From NCBI GenBank assembly GCA_013152085.1, contig JAADHC010000023.1, positions 1-36,690 on the forward strand: a stretch of DNA of 36,690 bases, read 5' to 3'. The position numbers and the translations under genes are program-made. The notes beneath the pieces are model-generated. The model searched no databases and was not told the origin of the DNA. It saw only the letters and a program-made list of their open reading frames with translations. The first letter of the stretch is position 1; every line of letters starts with the position of its first letter. Source of the stretch: Chlorobiota bacterium. GTDB taxonomy: Bacteria > Bacteroidota > Bacteroidia > Bacteroidales > VadinHA17. Shown one piece after another: positions 1 to 34,966 of this stretch.

Positions 1-1780
1 GGCGCTTTCACCGGACTATCCGCCGGAAATTATGATGTGGCCGTCAGAGACAACAACGGATGTATTCAATACGGCAGTACCTTAACCTTAACCGAACCTG
101 CAGCCATCACAATTACCGGAACCTCAAGTACCGACATTACATGTAATGGCGCAAACGACGGAACCATTACCGTTACAGCTTCAGGCGGGACGGGTGTTTT
201 GCAATACACCCTCAACCCGGTAGGGACCATTAATACTACAGGCAACTTCACCAACCTGGCTGCTAATACATACACCGTAGAAGTTACGGATGCTAACAAT
301 TGTGGCCCGGTTACCACAACTAACATTACCATCAATGAGCCGCCGGCAATCTCCATTACCGGAACTTCAAGTTCCGACATTACATGTAATGGTGCAAACG
401 ACGGAACCATTACCGTTACAGCTTCAGGTGGAACCGGTGCGTTACAATACACCCTGAACCCGGGTGGCACCACCAATGGCACAGGAAACTTTACAAACCT
501 CGCTGCCAACACTTACACCGTAGATGTTACGGATGCCAATGGGTGCGGTCCCGTTTCCACAGGGAATATTACTATTAATGAACCTACGGTTATCAGTATC
601 GACTCTGAAACCAAAACCGATGTTACCTGTAACGGTGGAAATGACGGAACGATCACTATTGCCGCCTCGGGGGGATCTCCCCCGTACCGGTATTCCGTTG
701 ACGGGGGCGTTACATTTGTAATCAACGGTGGCGTATTTACCGGTTTAACCGCCGGAATTTATAATGTAGCCGTTGCGGACAATAATGGTTGTACACAAAC
801 CGGAAGCACGTTAACCGTTTCCGAACCCACGGCCGTCAGCATTGATGCCGAAAGCAAAACCGATGTTGCCTGCAACGGCGGAAATGACGGGGCCATTACC
901 ATTTCTGTTTCAGGAGGGACCCCTCCATACAGGTTTTCTATTGATGGCGGGATTACATTTGTAAACAACGGCGGATTATTTACAGGACTGGTTGCCGGAA
1001 GTTATGATATTGCGGTCAGAGACAATTCCGGTTGCATACAAAACGGATCCACGCTCACGATTATTGAACCTGCAGCCATAAGTATTGATTCAGAAACCAA
1101 AACCGATATTTCCTGTAACGGTCTCACTGACGGAACGATTACCATCACAACCTCCGGCGGTACACCTCCATATGAATACTCGGTAGACGGGGGAACAACC
1201 TATACCGGCAATGGAGGACTATTTACAGGACTTGCATCCGGTAATTATGATATAGCGGTAAGGGATACCAACGGTTGTACTCAAAACGGCAGCACACTGA
1301 CCATAACCGAACCTCCGGTATTGTTGGTAGATTCCGTATCCCATGATAATGTTCTTTGTTTTGGCGACAATACGGGAACAATATCCATTTATGCATCAGG
1401 GGGAACCGGCGCCATTGAATACTCTGTCAACGGGGGGATTTCCTTTGCACAAAATGGCGGTGCTTTCACCGGTCTTATTGCAAACAATTACAACACCAGG
1501 GTACGTGATATAAACGGTTGCTTTACTGACGGACCGGTAGTTACCATAACCGAACCTTCAGCCATTTCGGCTACCATTGATACGATCAAAGCTTCCTGCA
1601 GCAGAAACACTTTTGATGGTGAGATCATCCTCACCGCTACAGGTGGAACAAGTCCCTTTTCCTATTCCATAGATGGCGGTACAACATTTACAGACTCTGG
1701 TCATTTTGTTAATCTCGAAGGGGGTATTTACTCAATCGTTGTTTCTGACAGTAATCAATGCCGGTGGACCGGATCAACAG
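1..1780 (+). repeat. Tandem SprB repeat units (one partial plus seven full)
   Basis: Units are bounded by EP linkers, with joins near bases 110, 340, 580, 825, 1065, 1310 and 1555. Two subtypes are visible. Units 2 and 3 end in a FTNLAANTYTVxVTDAN pattern. The first partial unit and units 4-7 end in a FTGLxAGxYDIAVRDN-like pattern. Units 2 and 3 are almost identical at DNA level over their first 80 bases (around 111-190 and 351-430), which points to recent duplication inside the gene. The repeats are coding and have no unique spacers, so they are not CRISPR. Confidence 0.9.
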
Positions 1781-2532
1781 AACTGGAAGGAAAACTTGTT
1801 GTTATTGCCGAAGCAGGAGCGGATACAGCCGTTTGCCCGGGAGAAAGTATTCAGCTTAATGGTTCGGGTGGCACTACCTTCCTTTGGGCTCCTGTATCCT
1901 GGCTCGATGACCCAAATATCCGACAGCCGGTAGCAACACCCGACAGCACCTTATGGTATTATGTAACCGTATCCTCAGGGTTTTGTTTTGATAAGGACTC
2001 TGTTCATGTAACGGTCTATCCTGTTTATGGCCTCGATGCGGGAAAGGATACTACTATTTTCACCGGTTCCGAAATCACCCTGCAGGCAACAGGCAGCGGC
2101 TTCACAGCATACACCTGGACTCCGCCGGACGGTTTGTCATCCACTACCGGGGCAACTGTTCAGGCATCCCCGGATAAAAATATCCTCTATTATGTAATTG
2201 CCGAAACTCCCGAAGGATGTTTTGAAACCGATTCGGTCTTTATCTCCCTGATCCAGGAAGTTATGATTCCTTCAGGATTTACACCAAACGGGGATGGAGT
2301 AAATGATACCTGGCATATCAGCAGCGCCGAATATTATCCGGAAATGATTGTTGAGGTATTCGACAGGTGGGGTCAGCGAATTTTTTATAGCAAAGGCTAC
2401 GGCGGCACTAAAGAATGGGATGGTACGTATAATGGGAAGCAGGTTGCCAGTGGAACCTACTATTTTGTAATCAGACTGTATGATCCTAAAAATACAGCTC
2501 CATTTACCGGGCCGGTAACCATTATCAGATAA
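1..2532 (+). CDS. SprB-repeat surface protein with T9SS type B C-terminal sorting domain (5' end outside window)
   Basis: The frame is open from the first base, so the N terminus and signal peptide lie upstream. About 590 visible residues are tandem SprB-type repeats of 70-80 residues, each with a CNG..DGTI start, an ASGGT.PY centre, a GxY....D.nGC motif and an EP linker. Two Ig/PKD-like domains follow (around residues 595-740; ADTAVCPGESIQLNGSGG and a second copy starting near DAGKDTTIF). The last ~90 residues, from IPSGFTPNGDGVNDTW through VFDRWGQRIF, form a gliding-motility-associated C-terminal domain, the type B sorting signal of the type IX secretion system. The product is therefore expected to be exported and held at the cell surface as an adhesin or filament. 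The stop lies three bases before a PorP/SprF-family gene, the usual partner of such cargo. Family and sorting signal are clear; the ligand is unknown. Confidence 0.93.
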   Translation, partial: GAFTGLSAGNYDVAVRDNNGCIQYGSTLTLTEPAAITITGTSSTDITCNGANDGTITVTASGGTGVLQYTLNPVGTINTTGNFTNLAANTYTVEVTDANNCGPVTTTNITINEPPAISITGTSSSDITCNGANDGTITVTASGGTGALQYTLNPGGTTNGTGNFTNLAANTYTVDVTDANGCGPVSTGNITINEPTVISIDSETKTDVTCNGGNDGTITIAASGGSPPYRYSVDGGVTFVINGGVFTGLTAGIYNVAVADNNGCTQTGSTLTVSEPTAVSIDAESKTDVACNGGNDGAITISVSGGTPPYRFSIDGGITFVNNGGLFTGLVAGSYDIAVRDNSGCIQNGSTLTIIEPAAISIDSETKTDISCNGLTDGTITITTSGGTPPYEYSVDGGTTYTGNGGLFTGLASGNYDIAVRDTNGCTQNGSTLTITEPPVLLVDSVSHDNVLCFGDNTGTISIYASGGTGAIEYSVNGGISFAQNGGAFTGLIANNYNTRVRDINGCFTDGPVVTITEPSAISATIDTIKASCSRNTFDGEIILTATGGTSPFSYSIDGGTTFTDSGHFVNLEGGIYSIVVSDSNQCRWTGSTELEGKLVVIAEAGADTAVCPGESIQLNGSGGTTFLWAPVSWLDDPNIRQPVATPDSTLWYYVTVSSGFCFDKDSVHVTVYPVYGLDAGKDTTIFTGSEITLQATGSGFTAYTWTPPDGLSSTTGATVQASPDKNILYYVIAETPEGCFETDSVFISLIQEVMIPSGFTPNGDGVNDTWHISSAEYYPEMIVEVFDRWGQRIFYSKGYGGTKEWDGTYNGKQVASGTYYFVIRLYDPKNTAPFTGPVTIIR

Positions 2533-2535
2533 ATA

Positions 2536-3441
2536 ATGAAAAGAACAGCATATATTCTTTTTCTTTTGATTCCGATTCTTGCACCGGGAAAGCTGCCGGC
2601 ACAGCAACTCCCCAATTTCAGCCAGTTTATGTTTAATGATTTTGTTTTGAACCCGGCCATTGCAGGAACGAGACCTTATTACGAAATCCGGTCGAACAGC
2701 CGGTTCCAATGGGCCGGTGTGGTGGATGCTCCCCAAACCATGAGCCTGAGCATGTATGGCCCGCACAGCAAAAAAAACATGGGCTTCGGCGGATACTTAT
2801 TTAACGATATTACCGGACCTACAAGCCGTACCGGCCTCTATGGCAGCTACGCTTATAATGTTGAAGTACGCGATGGTATTCGCTTATCCATGGGCCTTTC
2901 AGGCGGAATTCTCCAAAACAAAGTGGATGGAACCCGTATTACCCTTTTTGAACCCAATGATCAGGCATTAAAAGATGCGATATATTCAAATTATTCACCG
3001 GATGCCTCTGTGGGATTGTATGCATACGGAGAAAATTGGTTTGCCGGATTTTCAGCATTCCAGCTTTTTGCCAACTCGCTCAAATATTACGATGTAAAAA
3101 CCGGGTTAAATAAACTTAAAACACACTATTACCTGATGGGCGGATACCGGTATGAGATCAACAGTGATTTTCAGGTCGAAGGGTCAGCCCTGATCAAGAA
3201 AGTGACACCGGTACCCTTCCAGTTTGAATTCAATGTTAAAAGCACCTACATGGATAAATTCTGGCTTGGACTATCTTATCGTAGCAGCGATGCCTTGTCG
3301 GTTTTAATCGGATACATCCACATGGAAAAGTATTATTTCGGATATGCCTATGATATCGGTCTTTCTGATTTCAGAAAATACAATTCGGGATCACACGAAA
3401 TTATGATTGGCGTACGTTTTAACAAGATCAAGAACCAGTAA
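2536..3441 (+). CDS. PorP/SprF family type IX secretion outer-membrane protein
   Basis: The 301-residue product has a signal peptide (residues 1 to about 22, ending ...LPAQ) and the family opening QLPNFSQFMFNDFVLNPAIAG, where PorP/SprF proteins carry a Q(Y/F)MFN...NPAxAG motif. The rest alternates short hydrophobic strands and turns, as in an outer-membrane beta-barrel. It ends in an IMIGVRFNKIKNQ tail typical of a terminal strand. PorP/SprF paralogs act with individual type B cargo proteins, helping them reach or attach to the cell surface. The gene starts three bases after the SprB-repeat gene stop, and the next gene starts three bases after its own stop, so all are probably one transcript. 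The pairing with the upstream adhesin is inferred from adjacency. Confidence 0.93.
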   Translation: MKRTAYILFLLIPILAPGKLPAQQLPNFSQFMFNDFVLNPAIAGTRPYYEIRSNSRFQWAGVVDAPQTMSLSMYGPHSKKNMGFGGYLFNDITGPTSRTGLYGSYAYNVEVRDGIRLSMGLSGGILQNKVDGTRITLFEPNDQALKDAIYSNYSPDASVGLYAYGENWFAGFSAFQLFANSLKYYDVKTGLNKLKTHYYLMGGYRYEINSDFQVEGSALIKKVTPVPFQFEFNVKSTYMDKFWLGLSYRSSDALSVLIGYIHMEKYYFGYAYDIGLSDFRKYNSGSHEIMIGVRFNKIKNQ

Positions 3442-7475: not shown

Positions 7476-7584
7476 CATCTATACGGTCACGCTGAAGATT
7501 GTTAAATCCGGGTTCCTGCGTATTTTAAGTTTTATCTTTATCTTTAGGGACGTTAAGTAAATCCCATTTGTTATTGTGGGTTCG

Positions 7585-9243
7585 ATGAACAAAGCATTCG
7601 GGTTTAAGATGAAAAATTTTCTTCATGGAATTAATGAATTAAAAAAACTTTGCAGCCTGAGTCTGTTTTTTGTACTGTTTACCTGCCTGAGTGCACTGTC
7701 CTTGCCCTCTTTTACACAGGAAGTTCCTGTCCACATTTCCAATACTTCCATTTATTCTTTTCTGGAGGAAATGGCCGAAGAACAACTTATCCGGATATCA
7801 ACGGTTACCAAACCATGGTCCAGGTTGTACATTGCCGGGAAACTTGACGAATTACAAAAGGTCCGTGAAGAACTTAATCCCCGTCAGCTAAAAGAACTCG
7901 ATTTCTACTTAAGAGATTATAATAAGGAGTTGCTTCCCGGAAAAAATTATCAGAAAAGGCCTGATCTCTTCTACTACAAAGACAGTTTGTTCACATTCTC
8001 GGTAAATCCCATCGGAGGCATCCGGTACTGGAGTAATGGCAACGGCACGGTACATCATCGCTGGAACGGAGCCGAAGCCTTCGCCTACATTGGAAAGTGG
8101 GGATTTTATGCCAGCCTTCGTGACAATCATGAATCCCAACCAATATCCGGAAAAACCTATATTACACAGCGCATGGGGGGAAATTACAAAGGGGATAACG
8201 ATTACAGTGAAATGCGTGGAGGGATCACGTACGACTGGAAATGGGGAACCCTCGGTTTGGTTAAAGATCATTTTATATGGGGAAATAACGTACACGGAGC
8301 AAATATTTTTTCAGGCCGGACACCTTCCTTTGCACATCTTGATCTGTTTCTGAATCCTGTCCCGTGGTTCGAATTCCATTTTACCGAAGGATGGCTGGTC
8401 TCTGAGGTCGTGGACAGTTCACGCAGCTATTGGGTATCCGGCAGCTATGGTGTGGACTATCGTGAAGTTTATTTTCCCAAACACCTGTCGGCTAATCTGT
8501 TCACTTTCAAACCCTGGCAGCATACATCCTTCTCCTTCGGAAATTCAATTGTCTTTGCTGATGTGGGCCTCAATCCGGGATATCTGATCCCGTTTTTTTT
8601 CTTCAAGTCGGTTGATCATACCTTAAACGCCCACATCGACAATCAAAACTCCCAGATGTTTTTCGATTTCAGCACACGGGTTATCAGGCACACACATTTT
8701 TATGCAACTTTTTTCCTGGACGAAATCGCTACAACCAGGATGTTCGATCCTGACCGTCACTCAAACTTTTTCAGTTATAAGGCGGGAGCCGAAGTGAGTA
8801 ATTTCCCTTTACAAAATGCCGGAATACAGGCTGAATTTACCCGCACCAACCCTCTTGCTTTCCGTCATTATGTTCCCACCCTGACCTTTGCTTCAAACCG
8901 CTATAACCTGGGTAATTACCTTTTGGATAACAGCCGTGAATATTATCTCGCTCTATGGTTCAGGCCGGTTCGCGGATTACTGATCCGTACCGATTATAAT
9001 CTTGCACAAAAAGGTCCGGATTATACAGCGCTCGGAACAGACCGGCTTGGTTTGCCTTTTATGGAAACCGTTGAGTGGGAAAATCGTGAGGCCGGGATCT
9101 TTGTCAGGTATCAGATCATAAACGACGGATTTATTTTTGCAGGATTCAGGTACCGGAAAGTTAGCGGTCCTCCCGAATATACACCGGAAATTTTCAGGGG
9201 GAAAACCTCAACTTTCTCGGGTGGCATTAACTTCGGGTTTTAA
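7585..9243 (+). CDS. Capsule assembly Wzi family outer-membrane beta-barrel protein
   Basis: The roughly 553-residue product has a signal peptide (LCSLSLFFVLFTCLSALSLPSF), a short helical N-terminal part (SNTSIYSFLEEMAEEQLIRI..VTKPWSR, then the ELNPRQLKELDFYLRDY segment) and a long aromatic-rich barrel of repeated beta strands ending in SGGINFGF. This layout is that of the Wzi family in Bacteroidota; E. coli Wzi anchors group 1 capsule to the outer membrane. I took the ATG at 7585; a GTG three codons upstream and an ATG at 7609 are alternatives, and the last gives the most compact leader. It follows the sugar transferase gene on the same strand, so both probably serve surface polysaccharide export. 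Confidence 0.85.
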   Translation: MNKAFGFKMKNFLHGINELKKLCSLSLFFVLFTCLSALSLPSFTQEVPVHISNTSIYSFLEEMAEEQLIRISTVTKPWSRLYIAGKLDELQKVREELNPRQLKELDFYLRDYNKELLPGKNYQKRPDLFYYKDSLFTFSVNPIGGIRYWSNGNGTVHHRWNGAEAFAYIGKWGFYASLRDNHESQPISGKTYITQRMGGNYKGDNDYSEMRGGITYDWKWGTLGLVKDHFIWGNNVHGANIFSGRTPSFAHLDLFLNPVPWFEFHFTEGWLVSEVVDSSRSYWVSGSYGVDYREVYFPKHLSANLFTFKPWQHTSFSFGNSIVFADVGLNPGYLIPFFFFKSVDHTLNAHIDNQNSQMFFDFSTRVIRHTHFYATFFLDEIATTRMFDPDRHSNFFSYKAGAEVSNFPLQNAGIQAEFTRTNPLAFRHYVPTLTFASNRYNLGNYLLDNSREYYLALWFRPVRGLLIRTDYNLAQKGPDYTALGTDRLGLPFMETVEWENREAGIFVRYQIINDGFIFAGFRYRKVSGPPEYTPEIFRGKTSTFSGGINFGF

Positions 9244-22165: not shown

Positions 22166-22248
22166 TCGTTCCTGATCCGGCCGAGTTGGGTTGTTAGTAC
22201 ATTAACCATGGTATAATTTTTGTGTTACTTAATATAATAAAAATCCTT

Positions 22249-22905
22249 ATGAAGCAATTCCTTATACTATTTACAGGCCTTGTTCTTTCTGTTTCCGTAT
22301 TGGCACAGAATAAGGTTGTCCGCGGGAAACTGACCGTATTCAAAACCTATCCGGTTCAGCACGTATTGGTAACTGCAAAAAAGGCCAAAACTTCTGTAAC
22401 AACCGACTCTCTCGGACAATTTTCTATTGTATGCTTTGATAATGATGTCATTAAAATAAAACCAAAGACCTTTCAACCGGTCAGCAAAAGAGTCGGGCCG
22501 GATACAGACTCACTCACGATCAACCTGATTTTTATAGATAACCCAACAAACAGGAAACGGGCTGTGGGATATGGTTACATCAACAAAGATAACCTGCTCT
22601 ATGCCGTTGATCATCTTGATCAGGAGAATAATGATTTTTGTAACTACACGGACATTTTTGATCTGATCAAAGGACGGTTTTCAGGGGTTATCGTTGCAAG
22701 CGGAAAAGTTTATATCAGGGGGAGTAATTCGTTCAGCGGGCAATCCCAGGCTATCTATATTGTTAACGGAGTGGAAACACAAACGATTGACTGGATCTCT
22801 CCCTGCCAAATCAAAACGATTGATGTCCTGAAAGACAGTAATGCCGCAATTTACGGATCGCGGGGAGGTAATGGCGTGATAATCATACAAACAAAAAAAC
22901 GTTGA
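22249..22905 (+). CDS. Stand-alone TonB receptor plug domain protein (SusC N-terminus-like)
   Basis: From the ATG at 22249 the product is 218 residues, with a signal peptide ending SVLAQ. A carboxypeptidase-regulatory-like beta domain (about 20-105) and a TonB-dependent receptor plug (about 130-218) follow, with DIFDLIKGRFSGVIV, VYIRGSNSF and the SusC-like end DVLKDSNAAIYGSRGGNGVIIIQTKK. The protein stops exactly where the beta-barrel would begin, so it is a plug without a pore. An in-frame GTG at 22222 could extend it but would spoil the leader. Similar barrel-less plugs occur in Bacteroidota, and their role is unclear. The 3' end overlaps an opposing GIY-YIG remnant by 23 bases. Confidence 0.82.
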   Translation: MKQFLILFTGLVLSVSVLAQNKVVRGKLTVFKTYPVQHVLVTAKKAKTSVTTDSLGQFSIVCFDNDVIKIKPKTFQPVSKRVGPDTDSLTINLIFIDNPTNRKRAVGYGYINKDNLLYAVDHLDQENNDFCNYTDIFDLIKGRFSGVIVASGKVYIRGSNSFSGQSQAIYIVNGVETQTIDWISPCQIKTIDVLKDSNAAIYGSRGGNGVIIIQTKKR

Positions 22906-28678: not shown

Positions 28679-31600
28679 ATGATCATAAAGTCTTTCTTCC
28701 GTAATCATTTTTCCTTTATCCTGATCACGCTGGCTATTTTTTGCAGCTCACATCCAAGAACCTGGAGCCGGAACCTGGATGATATCAAGAAAAGCGGCAA
28801 AATATATATTGCCTTTGAGCATGCTGATGTAAATACCATCAACTATCCCCTGGCTTATGAGTTTGCAAGATATCTGAACCTCGAGGTAGAAGAGGTGATT
28901 ATCGACTGGGATGAAGCATTCAGTCAAAACGGTACCGTTCCTGAAGATATTGAAACGAATCCGAACTATCACTATACGCCCGATGCCCTGAAAAAGGCAG
29001 ATATTGTCTGCAGTACTTTTTCGATCCTGGAGTGGCGCAAAAAGCTTTTTGATTTTGCCGAAACGCTGAAGTCGGCAGAATTACTTGTATTACGATCAGA
29101 TAAACCGATGCCGGGAGATCTGGATGCTCTTTCCGGATTAAAAATCGCCCTGATGGACGGCACAAGCTTCGTCACACACCTGGCTTCAATCAACGATAAA
29201 ATCGGTGGTGGTATTAAAATGATCAAAACAGCCACTACCGATGAATCTAAAAACATGGTGTTGGATGGGAAAGCCGACGGTGTTATCCTTGATGCCGATG
29301 AGGCACTCACTTTCCGGAAAGAACATCCCGGAAAAGTGACCATTGTATTTCCCATCAGCAAGATCACAAATTCAGCATGGGCAGTGGAGAAAGGGAATCC
29401 TCTAAAAAATGAAGTTGAAAATTTCTTCCGTACCATCTCCAACAATGGTATTCTGGATAAAATCTTTTATGAAAAGTTTGCCGAACGTTACTCTGTTTTC
29501 GTAGAAAGTATTAACCCACACACGCCCATACAACCCTATCACCGGGATCTGAATGAAATCCTGAAATCAAAAAAGATCATCGTCGGTTTGCGGGATCGTG
29601 ATTTTGTCTATCATAAAGGGGAGAACAAACAATTTATGCATGCCCTTGCCGAGGAGTTTGCCGATTATCTGGGTGTCGAGATGGAATTTGTCCTGATACC
29701 GGAATTTGGAAAATACTGGGAAGACAGCCAGGGAGAAATTGTGAAGGATAGCGCTTACACCCCGGAGATATTTCACTACTTTGACATTGCCTGTGATATG
29801 ATTTCCCCGCTTCCCTGGCGGGAGAAAAAGGTGAATCTTGTTCCGGTATATTCGACCGATTACTCCGTTCTGGCCCGACCGGAAACCAATATACGCAACA
29901 TCTCCGACCTGAAAAAATACAAAGGGGTTACCGGGCGGGGAACCATCTACGAAGAGATTCTTTTTAAAAACGGGATCGACTCATTCTATTTTGCCCCGGT
30001 AAAAAACTTTATTTCTGATGTTGCGGACGGCAAGGCAGATTATACCCTGCTGGACAATGCTTTTCTTTACCCGCAACTGGAACCTAAAATTGCCCTTGGT
30101 TCGCAGGATGTATGCTGGGCGCTTCGAAAAGATCAACCTCAATTACTTGCCGAGGCACAACAGTTTCTCTCTGAATCTAAAACCAAAGGCCTTCTGAATG
30201 TTTTAAACAGGGCGCAAAGGGGAAATACTTTTCTCAATCCACAGGATTTCCTCCAAAGTTATTACGAACGCTTTCAAACAGGCAATGTCCCATACATTTT
30301 ATTCAGTGTCGAGAACGGGTTGCCGCAGGAAGATGTAACGGCCATCCTGCAGGATCAAAAAGGGTATATGTGGTTTGGTACCAACTCGGGCGTTGTGCGT
30401 TATAATGGCCGCAAAATGGAGATTTTTGACGTAAGCAAAGGCCTCAGCGACAATGCCATTTCTGATATCAAGCAGGATGCCGGCGGATTGATCTATATCG
30501 CTACGTCAAAAGGAGTGTCTGTCATTTTTGAAGATTCCGTAATTTCCCGTATGCTTCAGAACAGGGCTTTTAACCATATCTATATTGCCAATGATCAAAG
30601 CAAATGGTTCTTAAGTAATGCGGGAATATTTATCGTTGATTCCATTGGCAATTTCCGTAAAGCCCAGGATGTTTTCAGCGGATTGCCGGTAAACATTAAT
30701 GATATGGCAGAAGATACTTCCGGAACGGTAAGGTTTTTTGCTTCACACGACGGTTTATATATCCTCCGAAACAATGAAAAGGCAATTCGTGTGCTGAAAG
30801 ATTACTGTTATTCCGTATTTGTTGATCAGACAAACCGCGTTTGGCTTTCCACACCGGAAGGCCTTTTCAGTCAACCTATTAATAATATTGAGCGTGGGAT
30901 CAAGGGATCATCTTTAAATAAACAATTTGATATTCCCCTTACCATTATCAAACGAATCAGCCAGAGTCGTTCCGGATCAATCTGGTTTATGAATGATGCC
31001 CACCTTTACCAACTGGTATCCATGGATCAGAAGGCTGTGGTATATGCAACCGGAGGAGAGCTGATTAACAACACGTTGCTATCCTACTGCGAAGACAATG
31101 AAGGAAACCTGTGGATTGGCTTTTCCGGGGGGTTACAAAGAATCATCAACACCAAAAACCTGCGCAATTTCTTTCCGGACCAGATCAATAACTATATCTA
31201 TTCCATCAGCCAGGATAAAGAGGGCAGAATCTGGATCGGTACCAACGACGGGGTTTATTATTATCAGGACGACCTTATCCCCTTTACATCGCATCTTCCT
31301 GCCTCTGCCGGAAAAACCATTACCGCTTTACTTCCCGACGGCAATATCCTTCTTGCCACTCCGGAAGGGCTTTTTGAGATAAACCGGATAAACCTTCATG
31401 TTGTAAAACAAAATAAAAGCCAGCTCCTTGTAGGACTGGAAAATGTGTATGTTGCAGACGACGGAAAAATATTTATCCTTACCGGGAAAAAGGGTCTGAT
31501 TTACTATTTTCCTGATTTTAGCTCCCGTCCTGAAATTATTCAGGGGCGAGAAACTGCCAGCGTTTACCAGCTATCTTCCTTTAATGGCAGGATCATCGGA

Positions 31601-33313
31601 GGCAGCAATCTCGGCCTGATTGAATTTGACGGGAAGGGTTTTAAACCGTTCCTTCCGATGAATGCCACCGTCTGGTCTTTGTGTGAAAACGAAGGAGCGC
31701 TATGGATAGGTACAGAAAAAGGTCTTGAAATTTACAGGGACAATATCCTCAGTCCTGTTCCGCTGCGTGATAATCACGTAATCATAAAATCAATTATCCC
31801 GGCAAAAAACCGTAATTACCTCTGGATCGGGACGAATATCGGGTTTATGTATTTTAACAAAGAAACAAATAAAGAGGAGTTTCTAATCAACTCGAAAGAA
31901 GGCCTTTCCGGAGACGAAGTAACCAACGGCGGACTATTTCTTGATGCCAACGGGTTGTTATGGATTGGTACCTATCATGGCATTTCCAATTTTAACATTA
32001 AAGTAAAACGTGAAAATGAGTATTCACCCCGTTGTTATCTCGAACGGGTTCTGGTAAACGGAAATGAAATCGATAAAAAACCCGCCCGGAGATTCAGGTT
32101 TAATGAAAATAATTTTGTTTTTGAAGTTTCGGGCTTGTTCTATTCAGATGAACGATCTATAGAGTATGAATTTTACCTGCGCGGACAAAAGCGGAATTTC
32201 GATATGATCCGCCGGGGGAAAGAGTACCGGGCATATTATACCAACCTTGATCCCGGAAAGTATACTTTTGTATACCGTGCCAAGGGTAAAGACAATATAT
32301 GGAGCTATACAGGAAGTTTTCCCTTTGAAATCAGAAAACCTTTCTGGGAAACCTGGTGGTTCAGGCTTCTTGTGGTAATTACTGTTGTCCTGATCATTTA
32401 TGCATTGTATAAATGGCGCGTCAGTGCCATCGAACGACAAAAGGAAATCCTGGAAGAACAGGTGCGTGAACGTACACGCGAACTGGAACAGGCAAATGTC
32501 GAGATACAGGCACAACGGGACCTGGCCCGTGGACAACGGGATATGATTGCCGAACAGAAAAAGGAAATTACCGACAGTATTCTATATGCAGAACGGATAC
32601 AGCGATCGCTTTTGCCTGGAACAGAAAAGATAAAATCCATGATTGACGATTTCTTTGTGCTGTTCAAGCCCAGAGACATTGTAAGCGGTGATTTTTACTG
32701 GACAGCCGAAACCGATCATAAAAGTATTATCGTTGCTGCCGATTGTACCGGTCATGGTGTCCCGGGGGCTTTTATGAGTATGTTGGGAATATCCTTCCTG
32801 AACGAAATTATAAGTGAAAATAAGATCCTGGAGGCATCAGAAATTCTGAACAGATTGCGAAACCAGGTCATTGAAGCATTGCAACAAAAAGGAACCCCGG
32901 GAGAAGCAAAAGACGGAATGGATATTGCCCTTTGTGTCATCGACAAACAGAAAGGAGAAATACAGTTTGCCGGTGCTAATAACCCGGTTTACTATATCCG
33001 CAATGACGAGCTCTTCGAAATAAAGGGAGATAAAATGCCTGTAGCCATTCACGTTAAGATGGACCCGTTTACCAATCATGTTATATCTTATCAGAACGGG
33101 GATGTATTCTATCTTTTCTCAGACGGCTATGCCGACCAGTTTGGCGGACCACTGGGTAAGAAGTTTAAATACCGGTCGCTGAAAGAGTTGCTTATCAGTA
33201 TTCATGGTAAGAAAATGGAAGAACAGAAAACCATCCTTGACAACCGGTTCGAAGAATGGAAAGGGGAAAACGACCAGGTTGATGATGTGGTGATTATCGG
33301 CTTTAGAGTTTAA
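28679..33313 (+). CDS. Fusion sensor: two solute-binding-like domains, beta-propeller, Y_Y_Y domain, membrane helix and SpoIIE/PP2C phosphatase
   Basis: The 1544-residue product is a single-pass sensor. A signal peptide (1 to about 30) is followed by two SBP_bac_3-like halves (about 35-280 and 290-530; LDALSGLKIALMDGTS and ISDLKKYKGVTGRGT). A two-component-regulator propeller (about 538-1114) has repeated G.(L/M)WIGT..G..(Y/F) units such as QKGYMWFGTNSG. A Y_Y_Y domain (about 1145-1225), one membrane helix (WWFRLLVVITVVLIIYALYKW) and a coiled coil (1247-1314) follow. The C-terminal SpoIIE phosphatase (1315-1544) has the metal-site segments SGDFYW, VAADCTGHGVPGAFMSM, KDGMDIALCVID and VFYLFSDGY. 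It probably turns periplasmic solute binding into dephosphorylation of an anti-anti-sigma or other serine phosphoprotein. No kinase or STAS partner is adjacent. Confidence 0.88.
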   Translation: MIIKSFFRNHFSFILITLAIFCSSHPRTWSRNLDDIKKSGKIYIAFEHADVNTINYPLAYEFARYLNLEVEEVIIDWDEAFSQNGTVPEDIETNPNYHYTPDALKKADIVCSTFSILEWRKKLFDFAETLKSAELLVLRSDKPMPGDLDALSGLKIALMDGTSFVTHLASINDKIGGGIKMIKTATTDESKNMVLDGKADGVILDADEALTFRKEHPGKVTIVFPISKITNSAWAVEKGNPLKNEVENFFRTISNNGILDKIFYEKFAERYSVFVESINPHTPIQPYHRDLNEILKSKKIIVGLRDRDFVYHKGENKQFMHALAEEFADYLGVEMEFVLIPEFGKYWEDSQGEIVKDSAYTPEIFHYFDIACDMISPLPWREKKVNLVPVYSTDYSVLARPETNIRNISDLKKYKGVTGRGTIYEEILFKNGIDSFYFAPVKNFISDVADGKADYTLLDNAFLYPQLEPKIALGSQDVCWALRKDQPQLLAEAQQFLSESKTKGLLNVLNRAQRGNTFLNPQDFLQSYYERFQTGNVPYILFSVENGLPQEDVTAILQDQKGYMWFGTNSGVVRYNGRKMEIFDVSKGLSDNAISDIKQDAGGLIYIATSKGVSVIFEDSVISRMLQNRAFNHIYIANDQSKWFLSNAGIFIVDSIGNFRKAQDVFSGLPVNINDMAEDTSGTVRFFASHDGLYILRNNEKAIRVLKDYCYSVFVDQTNRVWLSTPEGLFSQPINNIERGIKGSSLNKQFDIPLTIIKRISQSRSGSIWFMNDAHLYQLVSMDQKAVVYATGGELINNTLLSYCEDNEGNLWIGFSGGLQRIINTKNLRNFFPDQINNYIYSISQDKEGRIWIGTNDGVYYYQDDLIPFTSHLPASAGKTITALLPDGNILLATPEGLFEINRINLHVVKQNKSQLLVGLENVYVADDGKIFILTGKKGLIYYFPDFSSRPEIIQGRETASVYQLSSFNGRIIGGSNLGLIEFDGKGFKPFLPMNATVWSLCENEGALWIGTEKGLEIYRDNILSPVPLRDNHVIIKSIIPAKNRNYLWIGTNIGFMYFNKETNKEEFLINSKEGLSGDEVTNGGLFLDANGLLWIGTYHGISNFNIKVKRENEYSPRCYLERVLVNGNEIDKKPARRFRFNENNFVFEVSGLFYSDERSIEYEFYLRGQKRNFDMIRRGKEYRAYYTNLDPGKYTFVYRAKGKDNIWSYTGSFPFEIRKPFWETWWFRLLVVITVVLIIYALYKWRVSAIERQKEILEEQVRERTRELEQANVEIQAQRDLARGQRDMIAEQKKEITDSILYAERIQRSLLPGTEKIKSMIDDFFVLFKPRDIVSGDFYWTAETDHKSIIVAADCTGHGVPGAFMSMLGISFLNEIISENKILEASEILNRLRNQVIEALQQKGTPGEAKDGMDIALCVIDKQKGEIQFAGANNPVYYIRNDELFEIKGDKMPVAIHVKMDPFTNHVISYQNGDVFYLFSDGYADQFGGPLGKKFKYRSLKELLISIHGKKMEEQKTILDNRFEEWKGENDQVDDVVIIGFRV

Positions 33314-33340: not shown

Positions 33341-34810
33341 CTACTTTCTGAAAGACCATTCATAACCATCTTTTACATCCCTGACCTCAATTCCTGCTTT
33401 CAACAAGGCATTACGAATTTGATCGGAAAGTTCAAAGTTCTTGTTTTTCTTGGCTTCAAATCCGGGTATCGAGTAATATTTTAATTAAGGCTGTTGTCAA
33501 CTCCATTCCTGCGGTTTGTCCGGACGGCCGGGTTAATCCGAGGATCTCCTCTGTAAAATCATGGTATGTTTTTTTCAGCAGGTCAAGATTTGCCTGATCA
33601 ATGGTTTCTTTTCCTGATTCCACAGCCCGGACCAATTTTATTCCGTCAAAAAGATGGGCAATGAAAACCGGGGAGTTCATATCATCATCAAGCGCATCGA
33701 GGCCTTTCTGTTTAAAAGCAGCGGCATCAATCGTCCCGGAGGATGAAGGGGCAAGCCGGTCGAGCACAGCCATTCCCTCCCATAATCGTTCCAATCCTTT
33801 TTCCGAAGCCTGTATTGCCTGGTTTGAAAAGTCAAGAGGACTGCGGTAGTGTGCCTGAAGGATAAAAAAACGGACGGACATAGGATCATAAGCCTTTTCA
33901 AGTAATGGATGGCCTCCTGAAAAAATCTAATCTCATTTAATGAAATGGCATTTCCCAGGGACTTACCCATTTTCTGTCCATTAATGGTAATCAGGTTGTT
34001 GTGCATCCAGTATTTTACCGATTCTGTGCCCAGGGCAGCTGTTGACTGCGCAATTTCACACTCATGGTGAGGAAACAGCAGGTCCATTCCGCCTCCATGG
34101 ATATCAAACTTTTCGCCCAGATAACGGGTGCTCATCACCGAACATTCAAGGTGCCATCCGGGATATCCCTCGCTCCACGGTGAAGGCCAGTGCATGATGT
34201 GTCCGGGGGTCATTTTTTTCCATAAGGCAAAATCATAAGGATTCTTCTTCTCTTTTTGCCCTTCCAGTTCCCGAGTATTGGTAATAAGATCTTCCAGTTT
34301 CCGGCCTGAAAGTTTACCGTAATGGTACTTCCTGTTATATTTTTCCACATCAAAATATACCGAGCCATTCATTTCATAGGCATATCCATTCTCCAGGATC
34401 TTTTTGGCAAACTGCTGCTGCTCGATGATATGCCCGGAAGCATGGGGCTCGATATCCGGACTCAACATACCCAGCTGCGCCATATTTGCATGGTAGTGAT
34501 TGGTATACCGCTGAACAATCTCCATAGGTTCTATCTCTTCGAGCCGTGCCCGTTTCCCGATTTTGTCTTCGCCAGCATCGGCATCATTTTCCAGATGTCC
34601 GACATCTGTAATGTTCCGGACATAACGGACTTTATAACCGAGATATTTCAAATAACGGTACAGCAGATCAAAAGTGATCGCAGCCCGGGCATGGCCAAGG
34701 TGGGCATCACCGTATACGGTAGGACCACAGACATACATTCCCACATGTGAGGGATGGATCGGCTCGAAAATCTCCTTTTTCCGGGTGAGGGTATTGTAAA
34801 TGCTTAACAT
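33341..34810 (-). pseudogene. cysS: Cysteine--tRNA ligase with two frameshifts (real decay or sequence error)
   Basis: From 34810 the frame encodes a normal N terminus: [21 protein letters not shown], the zinc and cysteine site ([17 protein letters not shown]) and the KMGKSLGN signature. After SLNEI the frame is lost at a 6-base A run (plus strand 33920-33925); one more base would continue into the expected [20 protein letters not shown]. The second frame runs from there to 33456 ([19 protein letters not shown]). Near 33456-33470 another one-base change moves the C terminus into a third frame, FEAKKNKNFELSDQIRNALL to YEWSFRK and a stop at 33341. The remaining sequence is well conserved, about 490 residues if repaired. 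As CysS is normally essential and single copy, assembly error is a serious possibility. Confidence 0.85.
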
Positions 34811-34966
34811 AGTATCGGTTTCGCAGACATATTCAGGCAGGTAAAATTACAAATAATTCACGGGAATCTCAGCAATGACAATTGACGACTTAAATCCGTA
34901 AAAAAATACTACGTTACAGGTTGATTACTTTTACAACAAAAGAACTTTCCGTAATTTTAATTCTCA

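Follow-up and report, generated by a model that had tools for sequence, protein, structure and literature searches.

Architecture of a receptor phosphatase from the Bacteroidales

The window analyzed here is a stretch of 36,690 nucleotides from a Chlorobiota bacterium placed by GTDB in the Bacteroidales (VadinHA17; assembly GCA_013152085.1). It comprises an entire contig (JAADHC010000023.1; C13 in our numbering) of a host genome that consists of 75 contigs and is 99% complete. On its forward strand, a single open reading frame (28679-33313) with an ATG start and free of internal stops encodes a 1544-amino-acid (aa) protein, hereafter termed the receptor. This protein joins two solute-binding domains (flytraps), a beta-propeller, a Y_Y_Y domain, and a PP2C/SpoIIE phosphatase.

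When the whole protein was scanned against Pfam, Reg_prop (1.6e-31), SpoIIE (4.1e-20, residues 1346-1543), and SBP_bac_3 (5e-15, in two stretches) were retrieved. The Y_Y_Y domain (9.1e-06) scored 25.9 bits, which is 0.7 bit under the Pfam cutoff of 26.6. With that domain falling just short, the set of domains named for this protein by the original prediction (SBP_bac_3 twice, Reg_prop, Y_Y_Y, and SpoIIE) was thus recovered within one intact reading frame. Scanned singly, residues 33-272 and 285-534 scored 38.3 and 31.5 bits, both above the SBP_bac_3 cutoff of 26.4. The two flytraps are 26% identical to one another (E 4e-12, two-sequence comparison). Since they are related and each measures about 240 aa, the "two solute-binding-like halves" described earlier are better read as two complete solute-binding domains in tandem.

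The receptor showed no Pfam match to HisKA/HATPase, receiver, or AraC domains, nor to the SLT transglycosylase domain. Hydropathy analysis identified a sole transmembrane segment and, near the N terminus, a maximum at residue 11 (12-residue mean of 2.69). Given the hydrophobic N terminus and the single membrane helix, the flytraps, propeller, and Y_Y_Y domain would lie outside the inner membrane, with the PP2C domain in the cytoplasm. The features are collected in Table 1.

Table 1. Positions of the receptor gene and its predicted features in the window
Feature	Residues	Window positions	Strand	Basis
Receptor-phosphatase gene	1544 aa	28679..33313	+	Open reading frame and translation
Signal peptide, hydrophobic core ~11-22	1-30	28679..28768	+	Hydropathy, called by eye
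Flytrap 1 (SBP_bac_3), R120 and D205	31-272	28769..29494	+	Pfam, alignments
Flytrap 2 (SBP_bac_3), R381 and D459 in equivalent places	285-534	29531..30280	+	Pfam, alignments
Reg_prop beta-propeller region	536-1145	30284..32113	+	Pfam; size and fold matches like BT4663-type ectodomains
Y_Y_Y	1155-1218	32141..32332	+	Pfam (25.9 bits, cutoff 26.6)
Single transmembrane helix, then basic stretch (C terminus inside)	~1225-1245	32351..32413	+	Hydropathy
Charged helical linker, coiled-coil character	~1246-1310	32414..32608	+	Read from sequence by eye
SiaA-type PP2C/SpoIIE phosphatase	1318-1544	32630..33310	+	Pfam, NCBIfam, structure-sequence match, alignment

Two AlphaFold models were built from a nine-sequence alignment and are of low confidence (mean predicted local distance difference test scores of 58.4 and 62.1). 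Lobe 2 of both flytraps and much of the propeller were modeled fairly, while lobe 1 was poor. Foldseek searches with the N terminus placed tandem flytraps on top, with the GlnPQ SBD1-SBD2 pair (6h30), BvgS (4q0c), and EvgS (9ilw) within the top five. With the whole ectodomain, the propeller ectodomains of BT4663, BT3049, and BT4673 ranked first. Because the template modeling scores were low, we claim the fold class alone; the alignment is too shallow for atomic claims, and the models serve fold matching only. The assignment of the first ~530 residues to a solute-binding fold, as originally proposed, is borne out by both the SBP_bac_3 scans and Foldseek.

Distribution and possible origin of the tandem-flytrap receptor

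The host genome gave 16 SpoIIE matches, two of which belong to a single gene in pieces, for a total of 15 genes, and 13 phosphatases besides the receptor resemble its C terminus. Six of the 13 carry Reg_prop and Y_Y_Y and one carries Y_Y_Y only; in the remainder, Pfam finds HAMP, TPR, MASE7, or nothing more. Propeller-Y_Y_Y-PP2C is thus an ordinary chassis, and the tandem flytraps are the unusual part. The original prediction had set the receptor apart from propeller proteins that usually end in kinase and AraC domains; with six other propeller-Y_Y_Y-PP2C proteins in the same genome, this contrast was overstated.

In a sample of 395 genomes from the phylum, with at most three candidates scored per genome, the flytrap-phosphatase fusion was found in the window's own genome only. 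Another 32 genomes matched the flytraps only as frames of 296 to 568 aa. Nine of ten such short relatives scanned combine SBP_bac_3 with SLT, the make-up of MltF, and the tenth had no Pfam match. Within the order, among the matches listed (the weakest being unlisted), 35 of 393 genomes matched both flytraps at E < 1e-60, the 35 belonging to 14 families. These 35 do not include G733 (a 1201-aa frame with a match to no more than the end of flytrap 2) or frames of 758 to 1007 aa in G536, G755, G757, and G721. We inspected 25 of the 35 proteins whole or nearly so; the other ten are known from their matches only. The possibility that the architecture is very common was set aside: despite its presence in 35 of the 393 genomes sampled within the order, the 395 phylum genomes, at three or fewer candidates scored in each, yielded no second fusion.

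Each of the 20 further proteins that were fetched has all five parts (both flytraps in tandem, propeller, Y_Y_Y, and PP2C) within a single frame; one of them breaks off inside the PP2C domain at a contig end. Such recurrence argues that the five-part order is not due to chance. Among close relatives, 10 of 40 genomes (the window's own included) have a tandem-flytrap receptor. A tree was built from 71 C-terminal halves. In it, 33 flytrap proteins make up one side of a branch, as a single gain of the flytraps would give, and this branch has 99% support in the Shimodaira-Hasegawa-like approximate likelihood ratio test. Two of the 35 proteins were left out (one without a C terminus and one cut by a contig end), the remaining 38 rows sample the best matches, and a quick search supplied the support value. 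The flytrap proteins fall into a subclade of 20, which includes the window's receptor, and a sister subclade of 13.

The phosphatase domain is of the SiaA type

Compared with known structures, the receptor PP2C domain matched 6k4e, the PP2C domain of Pseudomonas aeruginosa SiaA, at 1.5e-39; the next PP2C chain followed at 0.0021. The NCBIfam SiaA model matched residues 1257-1544 (4.5e-64, 217.1 bits) over model positions 374-657, its C-terminal 284. Since only this part of the model is matched, the receptor is not SiaA itself, and its score falls short of the 700-bit equivalog cutoff for full-length SiaA. All eight of the other host SiaA-type phosphatases scanned (of 13) also matched the model. 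The host's one RsbU-like phosphatase (L134) served as negative control; it was unlisted for the SiaA model and has no DCTGHGVPGA motif. The receptor retains this motif and the catalytic Asp residues, the latter being conserved in every ortholog whose sequence covers them. Asp residues 1338, 1355, 1482, 1535, and 1536 occupy what we take to be the positions of the PP2C metal ligands. By these sequence comparisons, the PP2C domain is classified as SiaA type and not RsbU type.

Candidate SiaB and SiaC partners in the host and in other Bacteroidota

The original prediction had proposed a genome search for STAS- and histidine-kinase-like partners of the phosphatase. Candidates of both sorts were retrieved: SiaC and STAS proteins on one side, SiaB-like and HATPase_c_2 proteins on the other. 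The host encodes six SiaC proteins and two DUF6272 (SiaB-like) proteins, with one SiaB-like gene directly beside siaC on contig C6. In P. aeruginosa SiaC, T68 within LLYLNTSSIK is phosphorylated by SiaB and dephosphorylated by SiaA (PMC7647112). At the corresponding site, three of the host SiaC proteins read NTSS and three read NSGS or NSSS.

SiaC was present in 13 of 198 Bacteroidota genomes. The SiaA model reached at least 140 bits in exactly these 13, the next genome scoring 98.7 bits, and SiaB/DUF6272 was above cutoff in exactly the same set. The three 198-genome samples were drawn alike; the SiaA search lists all genomes, and the rows listed for SiaC and SiaB agree. For the co-occurrence of SiaA matches at this level with SiaC, the Fisher test gave 1e-20, with relatedness ignored.

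At SiaC loci from 12 other genomes, a SiaA-type PP2C gene lay nearby in 11 of 13 cases. These 13 were taken from 15 loci (two of one genome, G084, were left out) with coordinates that already showed a PP2C gene near most of them. At two of the 11 (L168 and L172), a propeller-PP2C gene is lined up with siaB and siaC, and Reg_prop and Y_Y_Y were confirmed for L168. Turning to the receptors themselves, we compared 21 tandem-flytrap loci with flanks of unequal length from 20 genomes (L022 and L193 share a contig). In three of them (L181, L189, and L190), siaB and siaC lie upstream of the receptor on the same strand. Genes at L181 and L189 run siaB, siaB, siaC, receptor. Those at L190 run siaB, siaC, siaB, siaC, a TPR-PP2C gene, and the receptor, with siaC 2.7 kb away. 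By eye, Thr occupies the T68 site in all four receptor-linked SiaC proteins.

Fused and clustered forms of these genes were also observed. A 627-aa frame (L178:1665-3545, minus strand) consists of a receiver, a SiaA-type PP2C, and a SiaB-like (DUF6272) domain, and siaC directly adjoins it; judging from its domains, it is apparently a SiaC kinase and phosphatase in one chain. A 508-aa frame (L190:16819-18345, minus strand) has two DUF6272 (SiaB-like) stretches followed by a C-terminal SiaC, placing kinase and substrate in one frame. At L173 (528-10340, plus strand), siaB, siaC, and a 349-aa frame with another PP2C-like motif precede three consecutive SiaA-type phosphatases of differing sizes, all on one strand.

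Candidate ligands

Alignment to amino-acid-binding proteins places R120 and D205 of flytrap 1 and R381 and D459 of flytrap 2 at the ligand-contacting Arg and Asp positions. In solute-binding proteins of this kind, we take the Arg to hold the ligand carboxylate and the Asp to hold the amino group. All 35 proteins carry the Arg in both flytraps, which favors a ligand that bears a carboxylate. The Asp is present in flytrap 1 of 21 and in flytrap 2 of 8 of the 35. With the Asp lost from so many members, one amino-acid ligand for the whole family is unlikely. The window copy retains all four residues, and its ligand is likely an amino acid or a peptide.

Among curated families, MltF stands nearest to the flytraps (5.2e-23). 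PDB titles pair MltF with cysteine, valine, isoleucine, a muropeptide, and a tetrapeptide, and MltF is activated upon muropeptide engagement of its N-terminal domain (PMC10746161). Kinship to MltF, its ligand structures, and this mode of activation together make cell wall peptides a fair candidate for the ligand.

Proposed signaling route and alternatives

We propose that the receptor senses a carboxylated ligand and dephosphorylates SiaC, acting as a single-pass phosphatase that feeds a SiaABC-type partner switch, and we assign this reading a probability of roughly 0.62. The tandem flytraps would bind a small carboxylate ligand (an amino acid, a short peptide, or a cell wall stem peptide) in the periplasm. 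Their closure would be relayed through the propeller, the Y_Y_Y domain, the one membrane helix, and the coiled coil to a dimeric SiaA-type PP2C domain, which would then become active. This route is proposed because PP2C phosphatases can be switched by dimerizing coiled-coil linkers between sensor and catalytic domain (PMC12143880) and because helices connect the flytraps of BvgS with its cytoplasmic part (PMC4352136). That the ligand activates rather than inhibits the PP2C domain is a guess. The active domain would strip the phosphate added by SiaB from the Thr or Ser of SiaC that corresponds to T68 in P. aeruginosa; without its phosphate, SiaC would in turn bind an effector. SiaC of P. aeruginosa, when unphosphorylated, activates the diguanylate cyclase SiaD (PMC8457831). 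No GGDEF match was found in the host genome, and a SiaD-like output through cyclic di-GMP was therefore set aside for this organism. SiaC should act on something else there, the effector probably being no diguanylate cyclase.

Several observations weigh against this proposal. The 140-bit line separating the 13 SiaA genomes was drawn after the gap was seen. With the default threshold of E 0.001, matches to the SiaA model turn up in 185 of 198 genomes and in 12 of 14 control genomes, often via other stretches of the model, and the 700-bit cutoff is reached in none. For SiaB, the same threshold gives 17 of 198 genomes, four of them below the SiaB cutoff and not among the 13. Among the 13 SiaC genomes, only the window's own has a flytrap receptor; thus, the co-occurrence speaks for the phosphatase type and not for the receptor as such. 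The siaBC-linked receptors all belong to the sister subclade of 13 rather than to the window's subclade of 20, and they amount to only two independent cases, as L181 and L189 share a family. The chance of two of 20 lying within 3 kb is about 0.02, a rough figure that assumes seven siaC genes per 3.5 Mb. In the host, no siaC gene lies beside the receptor or elsewhere in the window, that is, on its contig, and stretches of 8.5 to 9 kb around the six siaC genes contain no PP2C gene. The Asp at the ligand position is absent from 14 of 35 first flytraps and 27 of 35 second flytraps. The structure models are weak, with a poorly modeled lobe 1. Finally, simulation placed SiaA residues E609, G611, F612, and R618 at the contact with SiaC (PMC7647112), and when mapped on the 6k4e alignment, only the Gly is kept in the receptor. 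PP2C domains adjoining siaC in other Bacteroidota likewise differ from SiaA at these residues, so this loss tells more against a shared interface than against a shared substrate.

Three alternatives were weighed. The SiaC proteins of the host may be served by a shared pool of phosphatases not paired one to one with them, the receptor adding to a common dephosphorylation. This account differs from our proposal only in lacking a dedicated partner and is otherwise compatible with it. It draws on the numbers in the host, where 14 SiaA-type phosphatases (the receptor and 13 others) face six SiaC and two SiaB-like proteins, and on the separation of the receptor and other PP2C genes from siaC there. 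Elsewhere, receptors and PP2C genes are linked to siaBC genes of their own, which suggests dedicated pairs at least in other genomes. We consider a shared pool possible but lean away from it. The flytraps might instead be a scaffold, or bind proteins, without any free ligand, leaving the propeller as the real sensor (of a polymer, as in the Bacteroides hybrid two-component systems). The frequent loss of the Asp would suit such a role, as would the membrane-proximal flytraps of BvgS, which are closed without ligand (PMC4352136). Against this stand the Arg invariant in both flytraps, the complete Arg and Asp pairs of the window copy, and the retention of both flytraps in all 20 further members checked, and we regard the scaffold role as unlikely.

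More improbable still is an RsbU-type switch, in which the PP2C domain would act on a STAS anti-anti-sigma factor and free a sigma factor or another STAS target. STAS proteins are the best-known substrates of SpoIIE-family phosphatases (PMC11418112), and the host genome has four STAS matches and two HATPase_c_2 matches above cutoff, one of the latter being a 131-aa frame at 80.7 bits. The receptor PP2C domain, however, is SiaA type; high-scoring SiaA-type phosphatases track SiaC and SiaB over the 198 genomes; the four STAS genes all lie on contigs other than the window's; and the separate RsbU-like phosphatase L134 would suit the STAS set.

Neighboring genes in the window

The neighbors of the receptor gene in the window are ispG (GcpE) and a broken cysS. 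As a clue to function, this neighborhood was set aside, since the genes that close relatives have in common there are mainly ispG and others of housekeeping type. The cysS gene (33347-34816, minus strand) adjoins the receptor gene, and no single frame reads through it. A related CysS protein (from L022) aligns to it as three separate pieces, which lie in different frames, and Pfam finds its catalytic and DALR domains in separate frames. Our guess is an assembly error in an essential gene.

Elsewhere in the window, a plus-strand gene at 37-3441 encodes an SprB-repeat protein with a CHU_C type IX secretion signal and is followed by a PorP/SprF gene. A 555-aa frame (7576-9243, plus strand) had no Pfam match up to E = 1. 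At 22222-22905 (plus strand), a 227-aa protein consists of a TonB-receptor plug with a weak carboxypeptidase-regulatory match and no barrel; no continuation was found in the downstream frames up to 23470.

Relation to known systems and significance

The receptor resembles several studied systems in part. It shares with SiaABC(D) of P. aeruginosa (PMC7647112 and PMC8457831) the PP2C type, SiaB and SiaC homologs in the host, and the phosphorylation site motif. It differs in its sensor (tandem flytraps and propeller), in a SiaA-model match confined to the C-terminal part, in most SiaC-contact residues, and in a host whose lack of a GGDEF match leaves no SiaD-like output. Like BvgS and EvgS, the receptor has tandem periplasmic flytraps ahead of the membrane, but a propeller and Y_Y_Y domain intervene and the protein ends in a phosphatase, not a histidine kinase. 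The Bacteroides hybrid two-component systems (BT4663, BT3049, and BT4673) have the same propeller and Y_Y_Y sensor, whereas the receptor has flytraps in front, no kinase, receiver, or AraC match, and a PP2C output. The propeller-Y_Y_Y-SpoIIE phosphatases of Bacteroidota, including the six others in the host, share the chassis but lack the flytraps; in the tree, the branch that sets the flytrap proteins apart lies among them. MltF, the nearest curated flytrap family and the type of 9 of the 10 short Bacteroidota relatives, has a single flytrap on a peptidoglycan-cleaving enzyme; the receptor is a phosphatase without SLT.

Outside-sensing SpoIIE phosphatases have precedents. In Sorangium cellulosum, a periplasmic binding domain is fused to SpoIIE (PMC2887360, published in 2010). 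That domain is pfam00532, and as far as the available description of these proteins goes, they apparently have no tandem SBP_bac_3, propeller, or Y_Y_Y. Proteins combining dCache_1 with SpoIIE have also been published (PMC9540692), and in Campylobacterota, a PP2C with a periplasmic sensor has been proposed to work via a STAS protein on a cyclic di-GMP enzyme (PMC9239204). A direct line from outside solutes to serine/threonine dephosphorylation, as originally suggested, is supported by the anatomy of the receptor, although the Sorangium and dCache_1 reports precede it as an idea. The further suggestion that the exact domain order is undescribed held up: the architecture recurs within one taxonomic order, but among the matches listed in the open-licence literature, no paper describes it. 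DUF1987/SiaC has been called widespread in bacteria (PMC8457831). The matches listed in the same literature include no description of a Bacteroidota SiaABC pathway or of SiaABC outside Pseudomonas. Thus, the parts are known, and it is their exact combination for which no description was found.

Taken together, the receptor is real, conserved, and coherent, combining BvgS-like tandem sensing, a Bacteroides-like propeller, and a SiaA-like output. As a tentative extension, to which we give slightly less than even odds, a sensory network driven by phosphatases may operate in some Bacteroidota alongside two-component systems. In it, many receptors ending in a SiaA-type PP2C domain (of tandem-flytrap, propeller, HAMP, TPR, and MASE7 kinds) would converge on a few SiaB-charged SiaC proteins with an output other than cyclic di-GMP. 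The tandem-flytrap receptor, with flytraps derived from MltF-type wall sensors, would then be its branch for amino acids or cell wall peptides.

The interest of the receptor lies in its joining of three studied modules (BvgS-type tandem flytraps, a Bacteroides-type propeller, and a SiaA-type phosphatase) in one protein, and in the partner to which this combination points. If the proposal is correct, the role of SiaC in a bacterium without GGDEF, and the routing of a flytrap signal through a propeller to a PP2C domain, would become testable, and a group of Bacteroidales would read small solutes via dephosphorylation instead of histidine kinases.

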